NCBI RefSeq assembly: GCF_002941025.1
Contig: NZ_PTJS01000001.1
Span: 7,817,678 to 7,881,677 of the forward strand
DNA: 64,000 nt
Direction of reading: 5' to 3'
DNA from: Streptomyces sp. QL37
GTDB lineage: Bacteria > Actinomycetota > Actinomycetes > Streptomycetales > Streptomycetaceae
Positions within the stretch are counted from its first letter, which is position 1; each line of letters starts with the position of its first letter. The notes beneath the pieces were generated by a model. It worked only from the letters and a program-made list of their open reading frames with translations. It did no database searches and was not told the origin of the DNA. A program made the translations under genes and the position numbers. Below, one piece after another: positions 21,385 to 50,869 of the stretch.

Positions 21385-24243
21385 TCAGCTCATCTGACGG
21401 CGCACCAGTTCGTGGAGCCGCCCGCCCGTGTCCGCGAGGAGCTCGGCGGGCGGCCCCTCCTGGACGACACGGCCGTCCGCCATGACGATCACGCGGTCGG
21501 CGTCCATCACCGTGGACAGCCGGTGCGCGATCACCACACGGGTGGCCCGCAGAGACCTGGTGCTCTCGATCACGGTGCGCTGGGTCTCGTTGTCCAGCGC
21601 GCTGGTCGCCTCGTCGAAGAACAGGATGCGGGGGCGCCGGACGAGCGCCTGGGCGATCATCAGCCGCTGGCGCTGCCCCCCGGAGACCGAGCCGCCGCCG
21701 GAGATCATCGTCTGCAGCCCCATCGGCATCCGCTTGATGTCCTCCGCCAGCCCCGCCATCGCCGCGGCCTCCCACGCCTCCTCCTGGGTGAAGACCTCGG
21801 CTCCGCAGATGCAGTCCAGGATCGACCCGGACAGCGGCTGGGCGTTCTGCAGGACGACCCCGCACTGACGGCGCACCGCCGCCTGGTCGAGCGCCGTCAG
21901 GTCCTGGCCGTCGTACAGGACACTGCCCGAGACCGGCTTGTCGAAGCCGATGAGCAGCCTCAGCAGGGTCGACTTGCCGCATCCGCTCGGGCCGACGACC
22001 GCGACGAACTCGCCGGGGCGCACGGTCAGCGACACGTCGTCGAGGACGACGGGGCCGTCGTCGGAGTAGCGGAAGGACACACCCCTGGCCTCGATCCCCC
22101 CGGACAGCTCGCCGGGCTGGGTGCTGGCGCCGCGTACCTCGGGTGCCTCGTCGAGCACCGGCTTGATCTGCTCGAACATCGGCAGCACGGCGGCGGCGGA
22201 CACGAAGGCCCCGGTGAGCTGGGTGACGGCCGTCAGCAGCATCGTCACGGACGTGTTGAAGGTCAGGAACTCGGCGGCCGTCAGCGACCCGCGTGCCGGT
22301 CCCGCCAGCAGGACGAAGATGACGAGTGAACACAGAGGCAGATAGACGGCGTTCAGGACCGTCGTCAGATTCTTGATCCGGCCCGCCCGCTTCTGCAGCT
22401 CGCGGCTGCGGGCGAACTCCGCGGCCCACGCCCCGTACGCGAAGCTCTCGGCCGCCGCGACCCGCAACTTGGGCAGCCCCCGCAGCGTCTGGAACGCCTG
22501 GTTGTTCAGCCTGTTGCCCAGCACGACCAGACGGCGCTGCCAACGGAGCTCCCACATGCCCATGGTGAGGAACACCCCGGCGATGACCACCAGCATCGCG
22601 ACGGCGGTGAGCGCCAGCGGCACACTGAACCAGAGCAGCAGGCCCAGATTCATCGCCCCGAGGGTGCCCGCCTGCACCACGACCGGACCGGTGCCGGACA
22701 GCACCCTGCGGATGGAGCTCACCCCCATCGCCGCGCTCGCCAGTTCGCCCGTGGAGCGCTCGGTGAAGAACTTCGTCGGCAGCCGCAGCAGCCGGTCCCA
22801 GACCGCGGGCTGGAGCGTGCTCTCGATCCGCCCCTCCATCCGCAGGATCGTGAGGTTCTGCAGCAGCATGAAGGCCGCCGAGACCACACCGGAGATGATG
22901 ACGGCCAGTGACACCTGCATGATGAGGGCGTTCTGCGCGTTGGGCACGTACACGCCGAGCACCTTGCCGGTGGCGATCGGCACCAGCGCACCCAGCGCCA
23001 CCGTCACCAGCCCCGCCAGCACCAGTCTCCGCAGGTCGCCCCGGGTGCCGAACAGGCCGAACCGCAGCAGCTGCCGCTTGCTCAGCGGCTGCTCCGGCAG
23101 CGGCCGGTAGAACATCACGGCGCGCTCGTCGAACTCCTGCGCGGAGGAGCTGTCGACACGGCTGCGCCGCCCCGTCAGCGGGTTGACCGCCTCGTAGCGG
23201 CCACGACGCCAGAGCAGGGCGACCGGAGCTCCGGACGCGGCCCGACGGCCCACCAGGGGCCCCGAGTTCTCCCGCCACCAGCGTCCGTCCAGCCGCACCG
23301 CCCGGGTGCGGACGCGCGAGGCGACCGCGACCCGCTCCACCGGGTCGATCCGGTTGCTCACCGCCCCGCCCGCCGCGGGCTCACCGAGGACGATCCCGGA
23401 GTCCCGTGCCACCAGGCGGCAGGCGGCGTACACCGCGTCGTCCGAGGCCCCCGTCGCGGGCGAGGAGCCCCTCCGGGACCGGCCGATCGACGTCAGCAGC
23501 GCCTGGTCGGCCTCCTTGCGGACGGCCTCGCCCGCCTTCATGCCGGCCGCGGTCCGGTCCTCGTGCGCTCGCTCCAGCTGTTCGATCCAGCGGTCCAGCG
23601 CCGACAGCAGGCGGTACTGCTGATTGACCATCCCCTGCCACATCGCGGGCTCGACGAGCAGGTCACCCGCCGCCTCGGCGCTGAACGCGGCGCCGTACTG
23701 CACACTGCCCGGCGACACCGGCAGCCACAGGATGTCGTCGTCGCCCACCGCCTCGTCGAAGGTGGTCCGCCCGTCCAACGGGGCCTCGAACAGCACCCGC
23801 CGGCCACGGCCCACGCCGAGCGAGAAGGCGTGCTCCAGCAGACTGAGCGTCGCGTCCCCGGTGTCGTAATGGCTGCGGTACTGGCCCTCGTACGCCCCCG
23901 GGTCGGCGTACTCCGGCCGGTACAGCTCACGCAGCGGGATCCGGCGCAGCACGCACTCCTGGAGCGGCCGCCCGACCAGGGTGTGCTGCGGCCCCTCGAC
24001 CGGACCCAGCACGAGCGTTCCCGGTTCGAGCCGGCCCAGGAAGTGCCAGTGCCCCTGCTCCACCGCGTCCACGGCGAACAGGTCGAGTGCACCGCCCATG
24101 ACGAGCCACAGCACCTGCGGCCCTTCCAAGGACAGGCTTCGCAGCCCGGCGCAGTCGACCGGCTCGCCGAGAGTTCCCAGCGCGCCGATGACCGGGTCCT
24201 GCCCGGGTGCCTCCGTGCCCGCGAGAGGATGAACGGATGCCAC
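21385..24243 (-). CDS. NHLP-type bacteriocin export ABC transporter (permease/ATPase, non-peptidase partner)
   Basis: 952 residues, GTG start with GGGAG upstream, one base after the peptidase-ABC stop. An N-terminal part of about 380 residues lacks a C39 cysteine motif and has a cupin or cyclic-nucleotide-like beginning. A six-helix ABC domain follows (about 400-690), then an ATPase with [28 protein letters not shown] and ILFFDEATSALD. This architecture matches the NHLM/NHLP bacteriocin system transporter that accompanies the peptidase-containing one. The two probably form a heterodimer exporting the precursor encoded at 27405-27632. Confidence 0.88.
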   Translation of the reverse strand: MASVHPLAGTEAPGQDPVIGALGTLGEPVDCAGLRSLSLEGPQVLWLVMGGALDLFAVDAVEQGHWHFLGRLEPGTLVLGPVEGPQHTLVGRPLQECVLRRIPLRELYRPEYADPGAYEGQYRSHYDTGDATLSLLEHAFSLGVGRGRRVLFEAPLDGRTTFDEAVGDDDILWLPVSPGSVQYGAAFSAEAAGDLLVEPAMWQGMVNQQYRLLSALDRWIEQLERAHEDRTAAGMKAGEAVRKEADQALLTSIGRSRRGSSPATGASDDAVYAACRLVARDSGIVLGEPAAGGAVSNRIDPVERVAVASRVRTRAVRLDGRWWRENSGPLVGRRAASGAPVALLWRRGRYEAVNPLTGRRSRVDSSSAQEFDERAVMFYRPLPEQPLSKRQLLRFGLFGTRGDLRRLVLAGLVTVALGALVPIATGKVLGVYVPNAQNALIMQVSLAVIISGVVSAAFMLLQNLTILRMEGRIESTLQPAVWDRLLRLPTKFFTERSTGELASAAMGVSSIRRVLSGTGPVVVQAGTLGAMNLGLLLWFSVPLALTAVAMLVVIAGVFLTMGMWELRWQRRLVVLGNRLNNQAFQTLRGLPKLRVAAAESFAYGAWAAEFARSRELQKRAGRIKNLTTVLNAVYLPLCSLVIFVLLAGPARGSLTAAEFLTFNTSVTMLLTAVTQLTGAFVSAAAVLPMFEQIKPVLDEAPEVRGASTQPGELSGGIEARGVSFRYSDDGPVVLDDVSLTVRPGEFVAVVGPSGCGKSTLLRLLIGFDKPVSGSVLYDGQDLTALDQAAVRRQCGVVLQNAQPLSGSILDCICGAEVFTQEEAWEAAAMAGLAEDIKRMPMGLQTMISGGGSVSGGQRQRLMIAQALVRRPRILFFDEATSALDNETQRTVIESTRSLRATRVVIAHRLSTVMDADRVIVMADGRVVQEGPPAELLADTGGRLHELVRRQMS

Positions 24244-24244
24244 G

Positions 24245-26518
24245 TCAGTGCTCCCTGACCAGATCGGCGTACGGGCCCCCGGCGGCCACCAGGTTCTCGT
24301 GCCGGCCGCGCTCCACGACGGTCCCGTGGTCCAGGACCACGATCTCGTCGCTGTCGCGTACGGTGCTCAGCCGGTGGGCGATCACGACACAGGCACAGCC
24401 GCGCCTCCGCAGGTTGTCGATGATGACCCGCTCCGTCTCGGCGTCCAGCGCGCTGGTGACCTCGTCGAGGACCAGGATGCTGGGGCGGCGCACGAGCGCC
24501 CGGGCGATCTCCAGGCGCTGACGCTGCCCGCCGGAGAAGTTCCGGCCGTCCTGCTCCACCCGGCTGTGGATGCCCCGGGGACGGCGGGCGACGACGTCGT
24601 ACAGGGCGGCGTCCCGGAGGGCCTCGGCCACGGCCTCGTCGGGGACCGAGGGATCCCACAGCGCCACGTTGTCCCGGACCGTCCCCTCGAAGAGGAAGAC
24701 GTCCTGGTCGACGAAGGACACGGACGCGGCCAGCGCCCCCCGGGGTATGTCCTCCAGACGTTGCCCGTCGATGCGGATCGTGCCCTCCCAGGGGCTGTAG
24801 AGACCAGAGATGAGCCGTGAGACGGTCGACTTTCCGCTGCCCGAACCGCCGACGAGCGCCACCTGCTGACCGGGTCCCACGGAGAGCGAGAAACCGGTGA
24901 GCAGCGGCTTGTCGAGCGGGCTGTAGCCGAAGGTGATGTCCTCCAGCGTCACATGGCCCTTGAGGCGGCGGGTGCTCGCCGCCGGCTCACGGCGGGAGTA
25001 CAGCGGGTCGACCGGGAAGTTCTCGACGTCCTTGAGCCGGGCCACGTCGGCCGCGAAGTCCTGGACCCTGCCGGCCACCCCGTTGAGCCGGGTGACCGGA
25101 GCGGTGAAGCGGGTCACCAGAGCCTGGAAGGCGACGAGCAGACCGATCGAGATGTGCCCCTCGACGGCCCGCAGTCCGCCGATCCACAGGATCAGCGCGC
25201 TGTTGAGCGTCGCGAGGGCGGGGGCGACGACGCCCAGCCAGGCGCTCGGCACACCGAGACGCTGCTGCTCCTCCAGCGTCGTGGCGTGCTGCCCTGCCCA
25301 GCGGCGGAAGTAGCCGTTCTCGCCCCCCGTGGCCTTCATCGTCTCGATCAGCTGGAGGCCGGTGTACGAGGTGTTCGTGAGCCGCGCGCTGTCGGCCCGC
25401 AGCTTCTGCGTCCCGACGGCCCGCATCCGTACGACGACGCGCATGGCGACCACGTTGAGCAGCGCGATCCCCACTCCGATCACGGTCAGCTGGGGGTCGT
25501 AGGTCCAGAGCAGGAACGCGTAGAGGAGGACGACGATGCCGTCCACGCCCGCCGCGGTGAGGTCCCGGGCGAGGGTCTCGGCCACGGCGTCGTTCGACTG
25601 GAGGCGCTGGACGAGATCGGCCGGGCTGCGTTGCGAGAAGAAGGTGACGGGCAGCCGGAGCAGATGCCGGAAGAAGCGCGCGCTGCCGAGCGTGGACGCG
25701 ATGACGCGCCCACGCAGCAGATTCGCCTGTTGCAGCCATGTCAGTACGACGGTGAGGGCGACCATGGTGCCCATCGCGGCGAACAGCACGCCCAGCAGCG
25801 AGGTCTGTTCGCCAATCATGAACATGTCGATATAGGTACGGCTCAGGGCCGGGAGCGTCGCTCCGGCCGCCACCAGCAGCAGGCTGGCGAGCAGGGCGAC
25901 CAGCATCGTGCCCGTCGTGCCGCGCAGCCGGGCCGGCAGCGCGGCCATGACTCCGGGCTTCCGTCCGCCGCGCTCGAAGTCCTCGCCGGGTTCGAGGACG
26001 AGGACGACCCCGGTGAAGCTCGTGTCGAAATCCTCGGCGGGCACGAACCGGCGCCCCTTGTCGGGGTCGTTGATGTACACGCCCCGCCGTCCGAGACGGC
26101 GCCCCACGCCGTCGTACACGACGTAGTGGTTGAACTCCCAGAACAGGATGGCGGGCGCCCGGACCTCCGCGAGGGCCGCGGGCTCCATCTGCATGCCCTT
26201 GGCCCGGAGACCGTAACTGCGGGCCGCCTTGAGCACGTTGCTGGCGCGCGAGCCGTCACGCGAGACGCCGCAGGCGATCCGCAGTTCCTCCAGCGGCACA
26301 TGGCGGCCGTAGTGGGCGAGCACCATCGCCAGCGAGGCCGCACCGCACTCCAGCGCCTCCATCTGGAGCACGGTGGGGGTGTGCACGGTCTTCGTCCGCC
26401 CCGGCTTCGGCGCCGGACGCGACCGCCGCCTGCCGCCCGGGGCCCCCTCCGGGCGGTGCCTGCCACGGCCCGGAGGCGGCAGCTGCTGTGCGGCGGGGGA
26501 CGGGTGCGGTGCGGTCAC
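24245..26518 (-). CDS. Peptidase-containing (C39) bacteriocin ABC transporter, NHLP type
   Basis: 757 residues from a GTG that overlaps the TGA of the HlyD-like gene (GTGA). After a basic Pro-rich N-terminal tail comes a C39 peptidase with Cys58 in MEALECGAASLAMVL, His131 in EFNHYVVYDG and Asp151 in NDPDKG. This type of domain cuts leader peptides after a double glycine. Membrane helices follow (about 195-460), then an ATPase with GGSGSGKSTVSRL, FSGGQRQRLEIARAL and ILVLDEVTSALD. It should remove the leader ending in VSGG from the adjacent precursor while exporting it. Confidence 0.92.
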   Translation of the reverse strand: MTAPHPSPAAQQLPPPGRGRHRPEGAPGGRRRSRPAPKPGRTKTVHTPTVLQMEALECGAASLAMVLAHYGRHVPLEELRIACGVSRDGSRASNVLKAARSYGLRAKGMQMEPAALAEVRAPAILFWEFNHYVVYDGVGRRLGRRGVYINDPDKGRRFVPAEDFDTSFTGVVLVLEPGEDFERGGRKPGVMAALPARLRGTTGTMLVALLASLLLVAAGATLPALSRTYIDMFMIGEQTSLLGVLFAAMGTMVALTVVLTWLQQANLLRGRVIASTLGSARFFRHLLRLPVTFFSQRSPADLVQRLQSNDAVAETLARDLTAAGVDGIVVLLYAFLLWTYDPQLTVIGVGIALLNVVAMRVVVRMRAVGTQKLRADSARLTNTSYTGLQLIETMKATGGENGYFRRWAGQHATTLEEQQRLGVPSAWLGVVAPALATLNSALILWIGGLRAVEGHISIGLLVAFQALVTRFTAPVTRLNGVAGRVQDFAADVARLKDVENFPVDPLYSRREPAASTRRLKGHVTLEDITFGYSPLDKPLLTGFSLSVGPGQQVALVGGSGSGKSTVSRLISGLYSPWEGTIRIDGQRLEDIPRGALAASVSFVDQDVFLFEGTVRDNVALWDPSVPDEAVAEALRDAALYDVVARRPRGIHSRVEQDGRNFSGGQRQRLEIARALVRRPSILVLDEVTSALDAETERVIIDNLRRRGCACVVIAHRLSTVRDSDEIVVLDHGTVVERGRHENLVAAGGPYADLVREH

Positions 26519-27321
26519 GGGAGCAGCCAATCGATCGGGCGCTGGTCGGCGAGACGGACGGAGCCGGTGGCGAGGGTCATGGAGCCGATCGCGTACGGAG
26601 GGCCGTCGGCCGAGGACCACCGGTAGCCGGACTTCGTGGAGGCCGAGGGCTCGATCCTCACCAGGACCGCCAACGGCCTGCCGTGCCGGGAGAACTGCTC
26701 GCCGAGCTGGGCGTCGCCGAGGAAGCGGGTGATCTGCTGCTGTGTCTGCGCGGCCCTGCCGACGGCTGCCACCTTGCCGCGCAGCACCCCGTACTGCTGG
26801 GCGGGCACGGACTGGACGGTGAGGTCGACGGAGGCTCCCACCGGGACCGAGGCGGCACTGCTGCCGGATACGTAGAGCAGGGCGACCAGCGGGTCGTCGG
26901 CGCCGTCGATCCGCTCGACGCTCGCCACGTCCGCGCCGGTGGTGACCACGGCGCCGATCGTGGCCGTCACCGAGGTGAGCCGGCCCGCGTCGATCGTGCG
27001 GACGACGCGTTCGCCCTGCGCCGTACGCACCTTGAGCAGGGGGGAGTTCCGGGGCAGGGTCTCACCCTCGTCGGCGAGCACCTCGGTGATCTGTCCGGCG
27101 ACGGGGCTCTGAAGGATGTAACTGCCGCGGGAGTGCGTGAGGATGCCGGGGGCGTCGAGGGTACTGGCGACGGAGCCCGTCACGGCCCAGAAGCAGGCGG
27201 CGGCCATCACGGCGACGGTGACGCAGAGGACGAGCAGGCCCTGCGGGCGGGCGAAGCGCACCGGAAGATCGAGCTGTTCGGGCGACTGCAGCTTGGAAAG
27301 GGCCTGTTGGCGGAACTGCAC
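26515..27321 (-). CDS. HlyD-like membrane fusion protein of the bacteriocin export system
   Basis: 268 residues. A short cytoplasmic tail is followed by one membrane helix (about 28-48, GLLVLCVTVAVMAAACFWAV). The outside part has the lipoyl-like pattern SPVAGQITEVLADEGETLP typical of membrane fusion or accessory proteins of NHLP bacteriocin systems. It probably couples with the two ABC proteins in the leftward operon. A 17-bp hairpin separates it from the precursor gene upstream. Confidence 0.86.
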   Translation of the reverse strand: MQFRQQALSKLQSPEQLDLPVRFARPQGLLVLCVTVAVMAAACFWAVTGSVASTLDAPGILTHSRGSYILQSPVAGQITEVLADEGETLPRNSPLLKVRTAQGERVVRTIDAGRLTSVTATIGAVVTTGADVASVERIDGADDPLVALLYVSGSSAASVPVGASVDLTVQSVPAQQYGVLRGKVAAVGRAAQTQQQITRFLGDAQLGEQFSRHGRPLAVLVRIEPSASTKSGYRWSSADGPPYAIGSMTLATGSVRLADQRPIDWLLP

Positions 27322-27404: not shown

Positions 27405-27632
27405 TCAGAGACCGGCGGTGAGGCCGGTGGCCAGGCCGGTGACCGCGCCCGTGTTCACGCCGGTGGCGGACTCGACGAGACCGGTGACCGAGCCGACGAC
27501 GCCGGCGACCGGGACGATGCCCTCAACGGTGCCCGTGACGTTGCCGAGCACGCCGCCGACGAGGCCGCCCGAGACGTTGTCGAGGTCGCTGTCGGAGATC
27601 TCGGCGGTCTCGACCTGGGGGGTGTAGTTCAT
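27405..27632 (-). CDS. Double-glycine bacteriocin-like precursor peptide with glycine-zipper core
   Basis: 75 residues. The acidic leader (1-23) ends in ISDSDLDNVSGG, the classical C39 recognition and cleavage motif. The predicted core (24-75, 52 residues) has no cysteine and consists mainly of Gly, Val, Thr, Leu and Ala. Glycines recur every fourth residue at 26, 30, 34, 38 and again at 58, 62, 66, 70, 74, with 47 and 51 between. Such GxxxG spacing packs membrane helices and is common in class IIb and other pore-forming bacteriocins. No modifying enzyme is nearby. A GAAGGG site lies about 11 nt before the ATG. Next upstream of the exporter genes on the same strand, it is their likely cargo. 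Confidence 0.82.
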   Translation of the reverse strand: MNYTPQVETAEISDSDLDNVSGGLVGGVLGNVTGTVEGIVPVAGVVGSVTGLVESATGVNTGAVTGLATGLTAGL

Positions 27633-27696: not shown

Positions 27697-28246
27697 GGGC
27701 CAGGATCAAAGCACGCCTGTGCCTCGCACAGCCAATCGAACTGCGGTGGATCTGTGGTTATCGGCCCGCTGGAATCGACTTACGTGCAGAAGTGTCCATT
27801 CCATGGCGGCGAATCCTTCACGAGCTTCACCGGATGAATTCTGTGACGCCGCGACTTCACGCCCCCCAACTGGGGCACTCCCGCCCCAATCACCCCCTGG
27901 GCCGGTCTGGACCTGGTGTTCCGCGCCAGGTCGCGTGATCGGTGTGCGCACGCCGTGTGCAGGTTTCTTCGATTCGGGGGCCCTCCCGATTTCGGGTGCA
28001 GTTGGTGTCGGCAGCCGTGCGGAGTTCGGAAGGTATCGGTATTCACGCGTTTGTAAAAGATGAACAGGTCTCTCTTTTCTCTGTGCCCGGCACATGAATG
28101 AACGGCGCGTTTATGAAGTGTTTTCCGCATCCAGGTGTTCACCGCGTCACGCGACCTCCGGGTATGTGGAGAACCTGTGCTGCCTTTTCTCGCGCCGCAG
28201 GTGGCGTGCGCGTTCCCGGTCGGCCGGGTGAGAGGGCTGGGTCTGA
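27697..28246. other. Long lower-GC intergenic region without a recognisable gene
   Basis: About 550 bases between the bacteriocin promoter and the xyloglucanase control region. G+C is visibly lower than around it and open frames lack Streptomyces codon bias or recognisable motifs. I see no RNA gene. It may be a transferred flank of the bacteriocin cassette. Confidence 0.4.
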
Positions 28247-28259
28247 TTCATCCGATGAA
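28247..28259. promoter_or_regulatory. TTCATC-C-GATGAA inverted repeat upstream of xyloglucanase
   Basis: A 13-base inverted repeat lies 56 bases before the CebR-type box and 129 before the xyloglucanase start. It may be a second operator; the binding protein is unknown. Confidence 0.3.
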
Positions 28260-28315
28260 ACGTCCGCACCACCCTTCTCCAGGGCGACGTGCGGCGCTAC
28301 CATCGGGATGCTCTA

Positions 28316-28329
28316 TGGGAGCGCTCCCA
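28316..28329 (+). promoter_or_regulatory. CebR-type operator (cellulose/cellobiose repressor box)
   Basis: TGGGAGCGCTCCCA is a perfect 14-bp palindrome and is identical to the consensus known for CebR, the LacI-family repressor that Streptomyces releases from DNA on cello-oligosaccharide uptake. It lies 59 bases upstream of the xyloglucanase start, where bound repressor would block transcription. CebR itself is not in the window. Confidence 0.85.
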
Positions 28330-28388
28330 CCTCTGTGTCAGTCCCGTACCGCCGCTGTGCGGCGGTCCAGCTCGGAGAGGACGTTTCC

Positions 28389-46318: not shown

Positions 46319-49300
46319 GTGACCACGAGCCCCGCGGACGCGCGGATACAGCAGCGACACACGGACCGCCCGGGGCGTGACGTGGCCGTGGACCTCTGCC
46401 CGGTCTCCGAGCTCGGGCGGCTCGTCGGACACGCGGACCGTCGCACGAGGCATCTGGGGTTCGCCCTCCTCGCCGAGCGGGCGGCCGGGCCCCACCTGCC
46501 GGCCGGTGAAGCGGCCGAGCTGGCGGAACTGCTGCCGCGGGACGTTCCCGAGCCGCCGGACGAGTCGCTCCTCATGGCCGGGCTCCACGGGCGTCTCGGG
46601 AACCACCTCCCGCGGGGGCTGCCCGCCTGGCGTGCGGTCCCGCTGCCGGAGCGGGTGCGGACCGCCTGGCTGCGGGCCGACATCCTCACGGACCCCTCCG
46701 TGCTGCGGCACGAGCCGCCCGGCGAAGCGCTCCACCAGGCGGTCCGCTCCATCGACGCCTGGGACGCCCACCGGCCGGACCGGCTCGTCGCGGAGGTCCT
46801 GGACGCCCATGACACAACCCTGCGTGCGGAGGCGGTCCGGCTGATCCGGCAGGGCCTGCACGCCGGTCTGCTGGCCCCCGGCCCGGCCAGGGACCATCTG
46901 GCGGGGCTGCTCCGCGCCGACCCGGACGGCGCGGCCGTCACGGCCGCCGCACTGGAGGAACTGGCCGAGCCCTGGGCGGCGTCGGACCCTCTTCCCGCCG
47001 CCCTCTTCGCCCCGTACCTCGATCCCGCCCAGCCGGCTGCGGTCGCGGCTCCCGCGCTCACCGCCGCGGCCCGGCACGGGCACGGGGCGCTGCTGTCGCG
47101 TACGGCGGCGGACACCGCCGCGCCTCGAACGGTACGCCGACTCGCCGTGGAACTCCTCGGTGAGCTGGCAGGACGCGGTGACATCGGCGCGCTCCTGGAC
47201 ATCGCGGCCCAGGACCCACTGCTGCTCGGCGGACCCACGATGAGCTGTCTGCAAGGGCTCCACAGACGCGGGCACTTCCCCGACGCGTCGCAGGCACCGG
47301 CCGTCGTCGGCCTGGCGCTGGCCGATCACTCGATCGACCCCCGCACGGTCGCGACGATCCTCTACACCTGCCGCCGCACGGTCCTGGACCTGCTCGTCGA
47401 ACCCCCGGCGGACGACCCGGGCGCGCCGCGCCGGCTCGACCTGCTCGTCGCCCTGGCCGGGCAGGGGACAGGAGACCTGCCGATCGGGGCCGCCGTCACC
47501 CGGCTGCTCCCCTCCGCACGCCTACCCGCGCCGTTCCTCGGAGCCATCCGCGCACTCCGCCACGAGGAGGCCGAGGAGGCCGTCCTCGCGTTGTTGCCCG
47601 ACGTCCCGGCCGCCGCCCTCGACACGCTCGAAGCCATCGGCGGGGACCGCACCGTCGCCGTGCTGACCGAGGCGCTCGGTCCGGACCCCGACGGCCGTGG
47701 AATCGCGCCCTTCCTCCGCCCCGTACGCCACCGGGCGCTCGAACTCCTGTGGCAGCTGAACACCGACCCGGACCTCCGGCGCCAGCTGCTCGCCCGGATC
47801 GACGCCACCGCGCCGCCACCGGCCGTCGCGGCCGACCTCGGAGCCCCCGACGAGCGCGAACTGGCCCTGCTGGCCGCGGGCCCGGAGCCGGCCGACCCGG
47901 TGGCCGCCCTGTGCGCGCTCGCGGCCCGCGGGGGCTCCGCCACCCTGCCCGCTCTCACCGGCCTGCTGCTGAGGGTCGTGTGCGAACTGGCGGCGTCGTG
48001 GGAGACGGTGGAGACGGGCCCGCAGCCGGAACCGGCCCGCGCCGGGGAACCCGTGGTCCCCCAGGAGATCGTGGACGCCGTACGCGGTCTGGGCGGCCGC
48101 CTGCACGCGCGCCGCAGGATCAGGCCGTCCTGCCTGCTCGGAGCCCGGGACGCCCGGGAGGCCGGCGACGCGCTGATGGCCGGAATCGTCCTGGACCTGC
48201 TGGACCGGCCGGACCTGTCCGCCCGTCAGCAGTCCGTCCTCCTGGAGGTCCTGCGGCGCGTACCGTCCGCGGAGACCCGCCCCCGCGTGCACCGGCTGCT
48301 CCGCCACCGCGATCCGCATGTGCGCAAGCAGGTGATCGCGCTCCTGGCCGCGGGCGCGGCGGGTGAGGACGCCCAGGCCCTGTCGGCCACGCTGATCGCT
48401 CTGACCAGGGCCGAGGACATCCAGACCGTGCGGCAGTCGCTGCTGGCCCTCGGCCACGCGGAGGCCCGCTGGGCCTGCCCGGCGATCACCGCGCTCCTGG
48501 AACACCCCACCATGAACATCAGGAAGACCGCCGCGTCGGCCCTCGCGCGCGCCGGGACGCCGGCCGCCGTGCCCGGCCTCCTGCGCGCACTCGGCCGCAA
48601 CGACAACCCGGGGCTGCGCGCCGGACTGGTCGCCGCGCTCCGCGCCGTGCTGGGTGACGCCTGCACGGCCACAGTCCTCGCGGCCGCGGCGCGCACCGGC
48701 GCCCCCCGTGAGCGCACGCTGCTGCTGGGTGCCCTCACCGGCACCCTCACCGCCCGCACGGTGGTCGCCCTGGCCGATCAGGGCTCCCCGCTCGTGCCGG
48801 ATCTGCTCGCCGCGGTGGCGGACGGCCGTATCCGCCTCGGTGCGGGGAGCGCCGCCGACCTCGCGGAGCTCGCCGCCGGGTACGGGATCACACTGTCGGG
48901 CCAGCTGTCCGGAGACGCCGACTCCTGGGCCGCGCGGCTCGTCGACCACGGCTGGAGCGCGCCGGTCGCCCTGCGCCTCGCGGACAGCCCGGACGCTCTG
49001 CGGCCACGGCGCCTGAGGGAGCTGCGGCCGATGCTGGCGGAGTGGCTGTGCCTGGCCCGGTCCGTACCGGAGGCCGCCCGCGACCGGGTCCTCGGCCTCG
49101 TCCTGCGGTTGTGCCCCGCCCCGTGGCCGGCCGACGAGCTGGAGAGGATCGCGGACTCCGTCCAGGTGCTGACGGACGGTCTCGCGGGCGAGCGGGCACA
49201 CCGGCCGGGGCTCCTCGCCCTGCTCCAGGCCGTCGCGCCCCGGCTGCCCTGGCCGGAGCGCATGGCGCTCGCCGGTGCCGTACGCGCCATGACACCCCCT

Positions 49301-50869
49301 CAGCACGTGCAGGCGCTGCGGCTGCTCCGCGCCTGCGATGCCGTGCCGGTCAGAGGGGACCTGGACCGGGCCCTCGCAGCCGCCCGCCTCGACGACGACG
49401 CACAGAAGGCCGAGAACGCCGTACTGCGTGAGGCGTTCGGCGTGCCGGAGCCGCCCACGCCCGGCGAGGAGACGGAACCGTGGCGGTCCGCGCTGCGCCC
49501 GGCTCTCCGCACCCGCCGCGCCCTGGAGGAGTTCCGGCGCCGCGCCCCGTACCCGCCGGACTCCAGGCAGCGCCTCGGCGCCCTCGTCGACGCGTACTCC
49601 GATGCCGCCGACGACGGGGTACGCGCCCTTCTCGTCGACTGGATGACACACCTTCAGCCGCTCGGAACGCCCCCGTGGACGCTCACCGAGACAGCCGGTC
49701 CGGCTTCGGAAGTCGTACGCGACGACCCCGGCCCGCCGCGTTCCGCCGAGCGGCGCACCCGGCTGACGGACATGCTGGACGCGCCCGACCCCCGCCGCAG
49801 ATCCGACGCCGCCCGGCAGCTCCTGGACTGGCCCGAGCCGGAGACGGCACGCGCGGTCCTCGACGCGTACCTCCGAGGGCGTATCGACCTGCCCCCCGGA
49901 GGCAGCCTGGCGCGCGCGCTGGCCACCGTCACTCCCGCGGAGCTGGGCGGTGGAGGGATCATGCCCGCCAGGGTGGCCCGCCTCGCCCCGCACCTGGACC
50001 CCTGGGACCTCGTGCCTCTGATCCCGCTGCTGCTCGGATGGTGGGAGCACGGTCCCGCCGCTCTTCGAACGGAGGCCGCTCACGCCCTGCGGACCGCGCC
50101 CGCCGAAGTCCTGGCGGAACACCTCCTGCCCCGGATCGAGGCAGGGGCCTGGGGGCTCATGGACCTGCTCGCGGGACGGCCGCTGCTGGGCTCCCCGGAC
50201 AGGACGAGGATCCGGGAGCGGCTGCGCGCCGAGGGGCGGGAGGACCTCGCCGGGGCACTCCTCCTGGACGAGGGGCCGGGCTCCGTCCCCGGCACGACCG
50301 CTCCCGCCGGAGCGGTCCCCGTCCCCCGCACGGCGGCTCCCGACGGAGCGGTCCACCGGCCGGGGCGCGGCGAACTGCTGCGCCTGGCCCGGACCGGGGG
50401 CCCGGAGCAGATACGCAGGTCCCTCTCCCGCCTCGCCGAGGAGCACACCGGCCGGGCCCCGGACCCGGACCCCGCCCTGCGGGAGGTCATCGGTGAGCTG
50501 CTGACCCACCCCCGTCCCAAGGTCAGGCTGCACGCCCACCGGATCTCGCGCACCATGCTGGACCGGCAGGCCCACCTGCTCCACACCACCGTCCTGCTCG
50601 ACGACCCGCAGCCGGACATCAGGCGCATGGCCGTCAGGACGCTCTGCCACGCAGCCTGGGAACCCGCCGTGCCCGCGCTGGTCGCCCTGCTCGACCACAC
50701 GCATCCGGCTGTCCGCGGAGAGGCCGCCGAGGGGCTCCTGCTGATGGGCGGAGCCGCGGTCCCCGCTCTGCGGCACGCCGCCGGTCAGGCGCGTCCCGAC
50801 AAGCGCTCCCGCTACACGGGCGTGCTGGAGCGGCTCACCGGATCCGAGGACGCGCCGCCCCTCCGGTGA
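46319..50869 (+). CDS. Giant HEAT-repeat protein of unknown function
   Basis: 1516 residues of almost wholly helical, Leu/Ala/Arg-rich sequence with recurring pairs of helices, for example RLLRHRDPHVRKQVIALLAA, ALLEHPTMNIRKTAASALAR and RKRTLCHAAWEPAVPALVAL-like units near the end. This is HEAT/PBS-lyase-repeat architecture, a long curved scaffold for binding proteins. No catalytic domain, signal peptide or membrane helix is seen. Translation appears leaderless from a GTG. It stands alone in its direction. It may be a docking or regulatory scaffold; nothing more specific can be said. Confidence 0.82.
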   Translation: MTTSPADARIQQRHTDRPGRDVAVDLCPVSELGRLVGHADRRTRHLGFALLAERAAGPHLPAGEAAELAELLPRDVPEPPDESLLMAGLHGRLGNHLPRGLPAWRAVPLPERVRTAWLRADILTDPSVLRHEPPGEALHQAVRSIDAWDAHRPDRLVAEVLDAHDTTLRAEAVRLIRQGLHAGLLAPGPARDHLAGLLRADPDGAAVTAAALEELAEPWAASDPLPAALFAPYLDPAQPAAVAAPALTAAARHGHGALLSRTAADTAAPRTVRRLAVELLGELAGRGDIGALLDIAAQDPLLLGGPTMSCLQGLHRRGHFPDASQAPAVVGLALADHSIDPRTVATILYTCRRTVLDLLVEPPADDPGAPRRLDLLVALAGQGTGDLPIGAAVTRLLPSARLPAPFLGAIRALRHEEAEEAVLALLPDVPAAALDTLEAIGGDRTVAVLTEALGPDPDGRGIAPFLRPVRHRALELLWQLNTDPDLRRQLLARIDATAPPPAVAADLGAPDERELALLAAGPEPADPVAALCALAARGGSATLPALTGLLLRVVCELAASWETVETGPQPEPARAGEPVVPQEIVDAVRGLGGRLHARRRIRPSCLLGARDAREAGDALMAGIVLDLLDRPDLSARQQSVLLEVLRRVPSAETRPRVHRLLRHRDPHVRKQVIALLAAGAAGEDAQALSATLIALTRAEDIQTVRQSLLALGHAEARWACPAITALLEHPTMNIRKTAASALARAGTPAAVPGLLRALGRNDNPGLRAGLVAALRAVLGDACTATVLAAAARTGAPRERTLLLGALTGTLTARTVVALADQGSPLVPDLLAAVADGRIRLGAGSAADLAELAAGYGITLSGQLSGDADSWAARLVDHGWSAPVALRLADSPDALRPRRLRELRPMLAEWLCLARSVPEAARDRVLGLVLRLCPAPWPADELERIADSVQVLTDGLAGERAHRPGLLALLQAVAPRLPWPERMALAGAVRAMTPPQHVQALRLLRACDAVPVRGDLDRALAAARLDDDAQKAENAVLREAFGVPEPPTPGEETEPWRSALRPALRTRRALEEFRRRAPYPPDSRQRLGALVDAYSDAADDGVRALLVDWMTHLQPLGTPPWTLTETAGPASEVVRDDPGPPRSAERRTRLTDMLDAPDPRRRSDAARQLLDWPEPETARAVLDAYLRGRIDLPPGGSLARALATVTPAELGGGGIMPARVARLAPHLDPWDLVPLIPLLLGWWEHGPAALRTEAAHALRTAPAEVLAEHLLPRIEAGAWGLMDLLAGRPLLGSPDRTRIRERLRAEGREDLAGALLLDEGPGSVPGTTAPAGAVPVPRTAAPDGAVHRPGRGELLRLARTGGPEQIRRSLSRLAEEHTGRAPDPDPALREVIGELLTHPRPKVRLHAHRISRTMLDRQAHLLHTTVLLDDPQPDIRRMAVRTLCHAAWEPAVPALVALLDHTHPAVRGEAAEGLLLMGGAAVPALRHAAGQARPDKRSRYTGVLERLTGSEDAPPLR

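Follow-up and report, generated by a model that had tools for sequence, protein, structure and literature searches.

A cysteine-free double-glycine peptide and its C39 exporter in Streptomyces: leader-sharing peptides scattered behind a common promoter box

A 75-residue precursor peptide of Streptomyces sp. QL37, encoded next to a complete exporter in the 64,000-nucleotide stretch of DNA analysed here (the window), appears to belong to a set of secreted peptides that are scattered and switched together, and has less the look of an antibiotic. The peptide and exporter genes form one unit; the leader recurs on peptides encoded elsewhere in Streptomyces genomes, a promoter box and upstream repeats are shared among these genes, and leader and exporter occur together from genome to genome. 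The system itself is already known, its gene order being that of SCO0753-SCO0756 of S. coelicolor. The scattered leader set and the promoter box are the new part of this analysis, and we found neither in print in the open-access literature. We regard it as an even proposition that the unit is an exporter serving co-regulated, unmodified secreted peptides that act on the hyphal surface or on aggregation.

The precursor gene (27405..27632, minus strand; 75 aa, ATG start) has a GC3 of 0.96, the typical pattern of a Streptomyces gene. It is not a chance reading frame, since 216 of the 295 Streptomyces genomes analysed have a relative of it and since the peptide and the HlyD gene recur together in all 80 named loci (the best 80 of 476), so that homologous precursors do stand beside the transporters in relatives, a point that the original prediction had proposed to check. 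Read from 27632 to 27405 on the minus strand, the product consists of a 23-residue leader, MNYTPQVETAEISDSDLDNVSGG (27564..27632), followed by a 52-residue core. The original prediction had already placed the precursor here, with a leader ending in VSGG, and our contribution on this point is the strand. The leader, which main and scattered peptides share, ends in NVSGG (residues 19-23), and residues T9, E11, I12, L17, D18, G22 and G23 are invariant across 72 aligned rows; a separate leader alignment took in 26 leaders of all kinds. Cleavage is predicted directly after GG and would release residues 24-75 (27408..27563, minus strand), with a computed plain mass of about 4,663 Da.

The core is hydrophobic and weakly acidic (anionic). 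It contains no Cys, Lys, Arg or aromatic residue and is poor in Ser (2 of 52, with Thr at 8 of 52), which bears out the earlier description of a core without cysteine, aromatics or serine richness. Glycine stands at precursor positions 26, 27, 30, 34 and 38 and again at 58, 62, 66, 70 and 74; the fourfold spacing noticed before over 26-38 and 58-74 is not a product of composition, as eight Gly pairs lie four apart against 2.8 in shuffled cores (P = 0.0006). Across the 72 rows strict glycine is held at position 58 (100%), 66 (93%) and 70 (90%) and in only 18% at position 38; small residues occupy positions 30, 38, 44, 51, 58, 62, 66 and 70 in at least 90% of rows and position 34 in 80%. The two alignments used (A1, 41 rows; A3, 72 rows) were selected, mostly from 75 database matches, with short or odd rows omitted, and the recount of Cys, Lys and Arg therefore took in all 76 proteins and all 80 named loci. 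None of the 80 cores (best 80 of 476 loci) carries Cys, and none carries Lys or Arg. Among the 76 database rows, two have Cys: P0075, which is of the scattered type, and P0066, a fragment of 45 aa whose tail is odd. Lys or Arg is found in P0042 and P0066, within tails that are apparently out of frame. The precursor had no NCBIfam match at E 0.1 and only a weak Gly-zipper match in Pfam (E 0.44). Two AlphaFold models, both weak (pLDDT 61 and 60, pTM 0.27 and 0.24), place helices with low confidence at residues 42-57 and about 61-74. At a dN/dS of 0.71 the core changes more quickly than the leader (0.34) or HlyD (0.36), as estimated from 36 genes in 630 pooled, non-independent pairs; this fits a surface role and also a weapon or a signal.

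Behind the peptide gene, on the same minus strand, follow a HlyD-type adaptor (26515..27321, 268 aa), a C39 peptidase/permease/ATPase (24245..26620) and a second permease/ATPase (21385..24243), so that the claim of a complete exporter holds. All three pass the NCBIfam cut-offs for NHLP (NHLM) export systems, HlyD by a mere 1.2 bits (TIGR03794, 157.4 against a cut-off of 156.2), the C39 protein with 1013.5 bits (TIGR03796; PF03412) and the second ABC protein with 883 bits (TIGR03797). The C39 domain spans approximately residues 82-213, and the true start of this protein is probably downstream of the annotated one. Its closest solved structure is 6mpz, a double-glycine protease domain (E 4.8e-44), with which its intact ECGAAS, NH and DP.KG motifs align; we take these motifs to carry the catalytic residues. 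The second ABC protein is extended at its N-terminus by about 267 residues (23442-24243, minus strand), a part that had no Pfam match at E 0.01. The assignment to NHLP machinery made in the original prediction thus stands for the exporter and not for the precursor: unlike in NHLP systems, the leader is short (23 residues) and gave no nitrile-hydratase- or Nif11-like match in NCBIfam at E 0.1, a collection that we assume to include the NHLP leader models, and no modifying enzyme is linked to the unit.

The unit is flanked by a convergent transketolase gene and by a divergent gene for a sortilin/BNR-repeat protein with a cellulose-binding (CBM2) domain; these flanks recur in seven of the 80 named loci (best 80 of 476). 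All four genes were matched in 75 of these best 80 of 476 loci and the other five are cut by contig ends; genes are partial in L067 (HlyD) and L101. The peptide stop and HlyD are separated by 73-225 bases, the unit showed no immunity-type gene among ORFs of at least 60 aa, and no further gene family of that size lies beside more than 21 of the 80 loci (all in the best 80 of 476), a count that could miss smaller or fast-changing genes.

Within Streptomyces the system is widespread. The 216 peptide-bearing genomes amount to 73% of the species sampled; HlyD is present in 220 of the 295, together with the peptide in 215, and one genome has the peptide alone (a weak match) and five HlyD alone. The latter (G028, G038, G121, G186 and G188 in the full-length search) may possibly carry diverged resident peptides. 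In a class-wide sample the system was found in 30 of 394 genomes, all within one of 137 genera, and a few of the named loci are classified as Actinacidiphila or Kitasatospora. A mobile-element reading was rejected, as tblastn at E 1e-3 gave no match in 72,556 plasmid and 50,697 phage records. Strict vertical inheritance was likewise rejected, on the weak test of a single reference genome: HlyD similarity is uncorrelated with that of RpoB (rho 0.10, n = 70; HlyD E-values compared with RpoB bits). A near-identical HlyD is present in the four genomes closest by RpoB, but 10 of the 13 next nearest are without the system. Because HlyD similarity does not track RpoB and near relatives are patchy, the system appears to be common but gained and lost.

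The counterpart in S. coelicolor has the same order of peptide, HlyD, ABC and ABC genes, a match made by order and description and not by the letters of SCO0753. In line with this, the gene after the unit in L108 is 81% identical to the Ppx/GppA protein of L085, and SCO0757 is an exopolyphosphatase. According to the available portion of PMC6629963, SCO0753 is a hydrophobic peptide of 77 residues that has no Cys, precedes a type I-like secretion operon, is conserved in many species and is, in the authors' view, probably exported. It was the most induced of many changed genes (more than 60-fold; log2 6.3; qPCR 8.1) when a dispersed-growing strain with activated Sco5282 was compared, in the absence of wild type, with the null mutant, where its expression was close to nil. 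The counterpart is thus controlled together with morphology, by a two-component system, and a change of the hyphal surface was proposed by those authors (PMC6629963). That paper, in the part available, reports no leader relatives elsewhere, no box and no distribution. SCO0753 is also up in an aor1 mutant, where it was named as a gene of a bacteriocin cluster (PMC5733086, in the part available), and PMC11043171, as far as its accessible text goes, concerns a different two-component system.

A model built on the leader alone gave 102 matches in 70 of 101 genomes: one match in 45 genomes, two in 20, three in three and four in two. Where a genome has several (25 genomes), they lie on separate contigs or distant from each other, and at least 32 extra leader peptides are therefore not linked to the exporter and are scattered in 25 of the 70 leader-bearing genomes. 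HlyD accompanies the leader in 69 of the 70 (all but G001, a genome that is 79% complete), and only two of 71 genomes with HlyD in the 101-genome set are without a leader match. We retrieved 28 scattered peptides, 20 of the 32 plus eight from other genomes. Their cores all differ from the main core; seven of the 28 have one Cys and seven have one Lys or Arg. The single Cys (in L145, L147, L148, L169, L173, L176 and L179) mostly precedes a SPEG- or STEG-like motif. Neighbouring genes track core type, and clustering of the neighbours gave none that recurs across all scattered core types. In one type (L163, L167, L168, L172 and L174) the next gene, on the same strand, looks sigma-factor-like, as judged from its letters. 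Nine further loci linked to the exporter have a diverged resident peptide that starts with MR and whose leader ends in DAV(S/A)GG.

Main and scattered genes are joined by their upstream sequence. A promoter-like box, GTGCTTTGATCC (27703..27714, minus strand), lies 82 bases before the ATG (median across loci about 100) and is the sole exact copy in the genome; nine further sites with one mismatch were found there, against two for the control. With at least 10 of 12 matches and within 200 bases, the box precedes 79 of 81 main genes, 25 of 28 scattered peptides and five of nine diverged resident peptides, compared with 25 of 4000 random stretches, which were taken out of the 80 named loci themselves and could contain true sites. 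A GATTGG element (27732..27737, minus strand) precedes the box, its ATTGG beginning 22 bases before it, and ATTGG (at least four of five) is found at that distance in 78 of 81 main loci. Taken jointly at relaxed thresholds (box at least 9, ATTGG four of five), the two are present at 80 of 81 main loci, six of nine diverged, 14 of 28 scattered and 20 of 4000 random stretches; the 14 scattered peptides without the pair count against a regulon, as does the low share of diverged resident peptides with the box. Exact boxes number 69 in 47 of the 101 genomes, against one for the reversed control, and 54 of them lie on the same strand no more than 300 bases upstream of a leader match. The other 15, which are not ahead of a leader peptide, also weigh against the regulon and were not counted as its members. 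Six of these share one other conserved context, ctcggagcctg-box-ggaac...gcagtacccaaggagccc without GATTGG (L221, L225, L227, L231, L233 and L235); in three (L228, L230 and L232) the exact box is followed, at a distance of about 250-275 bases, by a conserved gene whose product begins MAQPTAL and is presumably related to 2-oxoglutarate dioxygenases; and six are single cases.

Farther upstream, a long intergenic stretch (27738-28380) between the peptide gene and the divergent CBM2/BNR-repeat gene contains CTGCAC repeats. The proximal copy (27784..27789, minus strand) is at about -75 from the box and the distal one (27957..27962, minus strand) at about -248, positions whose bins hold 61 and 58 sites, respectively, over 81 upstream regions; a third copy (27996..28001, minus strand; about -287) is at an unshared position, with one site in its bin. 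Upstream of main genes the repeats lie for the most part near -250, -210 and -80 relative to the box and nearly always in one orientation (0.05 for the other), with a mean per 450 bases of 2.0, compared with 1.07 upstream of scattered peptides and 0.21 in random stretches. Expression data alone make Sco5283 a candidate regulator at the box.

Combined, these observations can be accommodated in a scheme in which the first ABC protein would cut the precursor behind its GG by means of the C39 domain, and both ABC subunits, together with HlyD, would carry the hydrophobic core outside, where helices with glycine-zipper-like small-residue faces may let it self-associate or sit in or on the hyphal envelope and so alter how hyphae adhere to each other. 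The resident peptide would be one regulon member, with others of the same leader and different cores elsewhere in the genome in approximately a quarter of the sampled species, sharing the promoter type and, we infer, the resident exporter. We propose more tentatively, at somewhat below an even chance, that one exporter, the resident peptide and (in that quarter of species) one to three others under one promoter type form a dispersed regulon in many Streptomyces species, whose unmodified products would supply the vegetative mycelium with a variable secreted coat or matrix, separate from that of chaplins, rodlins and SapB. The nearest functional precedent is that of the cyanobacterial proteins EbfG1-4, which, as described in the accessible parts of the two reports, carry GG motifs, are secreted with the involvement of a C39 transporter (PteB) and are needed for biofilm formation (PMC4997328), EbfG1-3 being amyloid-prone in E. 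coli (PMC9981879). There, small GG-leader proteins and a C39 transporter serve a collective surface trait and not killing; the EbfG genes differ in forming one operon, unlike the scattered Streptomyces peptides, and the likeness is one of description and not of sequence.

Chemistry offers one alternative to unmodified surface peptides. Relatives are named "type A2 lantipeptide" at NCBI and in UniRef, and the core has eight Thr and two Ser that could be dehydrated in trans by a distant RamC- or LanM-like enzyme. The QL37 genome does hold one LanC-like match, a RamC homologue near 3.30 Mb, about 4.5 Mb from the peptide at 7.85 Mb. The remaining evidence runs the other way and makes a peptide modified in trans improbable, with a small chance at best. 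The genome has no LanM (PF13575, E 1e-5) and no YcaO match. Among the 295 Streptomyces genomes, a LanM domain occurs in 83, including 52 of the 216 with the peptide, and shows no positive association with it; 164 of the 216 are without LanM. This is how the search for an enzyme acting in trans came out for the LanM, LanC-like and YcaO classes. A class II lanthipeptide needs core Cys for its thioether rings and a LanM, linked or in the genome; no such Cys is found in the 80 cores (best 80 of 476 loci), and because of this and because LanM is not required, the LANTHIPEPTIDE label was rejected as a class. In the available text of PMC13047742 the lantipeptide label is given merely from a BLAST name. 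No modifying enzyme stands beside the peptide and transporter genes, as had been noted, the next genes being those for the transketolase and the BNR-repeat/CBM2 protein, and we infer that the peptide is unmodified by anything encoded nearby.

Killing and signalling are the other two readings to be weighed against a surface role. Class II bacteriocins are usually cationic. The original prediction took the peptide for a possible unmodified, membrane-active bacteriocin. On this reading the core would insert into membranes of competing actinomycetes via glycine-zipper helices, with the exporter or an unlinked protein conferring immunity, and the GG leader, C39 exporter and hydrophobic core with Gly four apart speak for it. 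The faster evolution of the core, the several cores per genome and the patchiness among near relatives are also what one would expect of a weapon. Against it, no linked immunity gene or other recurring ORF of at least 60 aa was seen and no core has Lys or Arg (both in the best 80 of 476 loci), the gene is retained in 216 of 295 genomes with no plasmid or phage match, and control of the S. coelicolor counterpart goes with that of morphology (PMC6629963, available portion); we consider the bacteriocin reading unlikely and have not kept the name. In the streptococcal Blp and Com regulons one C39 exporter serves several scattered GG peptides with shared promoter repeats, an arrangement that is alike by description, not by sequence, in a different phylum. 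By that analogy one or more cores might act on a two-component system that turns the regulon on and off, and the direct repeats in the promoters shared by scattered GG peptides, together with the two-component control of the S. coelicolor counterpart (PMC6629963, available portion), speak for it. With no gene family beside more than 21 of the 80 loci (best 80 of 476), however, no sensor is regularly linked, nor was a linked pheromone seen in Streptomyces. A hydrophobic core of 52 residues is also large for a pheromone, and we rate a signal as quite unlikely.

How hyphae stick and disperse is an old question in organisms that are grown industrially as clumping mycelium. The family described here, common among the species sampled, served by an exporter of its own, marked by a promoter signature and carried so far under a lantibiotic label, offers a short list of genes to delete; our results also suggest that "lantipeptide" calls at SCO0753-type loci need not mean an antibiotic. 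Elsewhere in the window, a protein of 1516 residues with HEAT repeats is encoded at 46319-50869 (plus strand).
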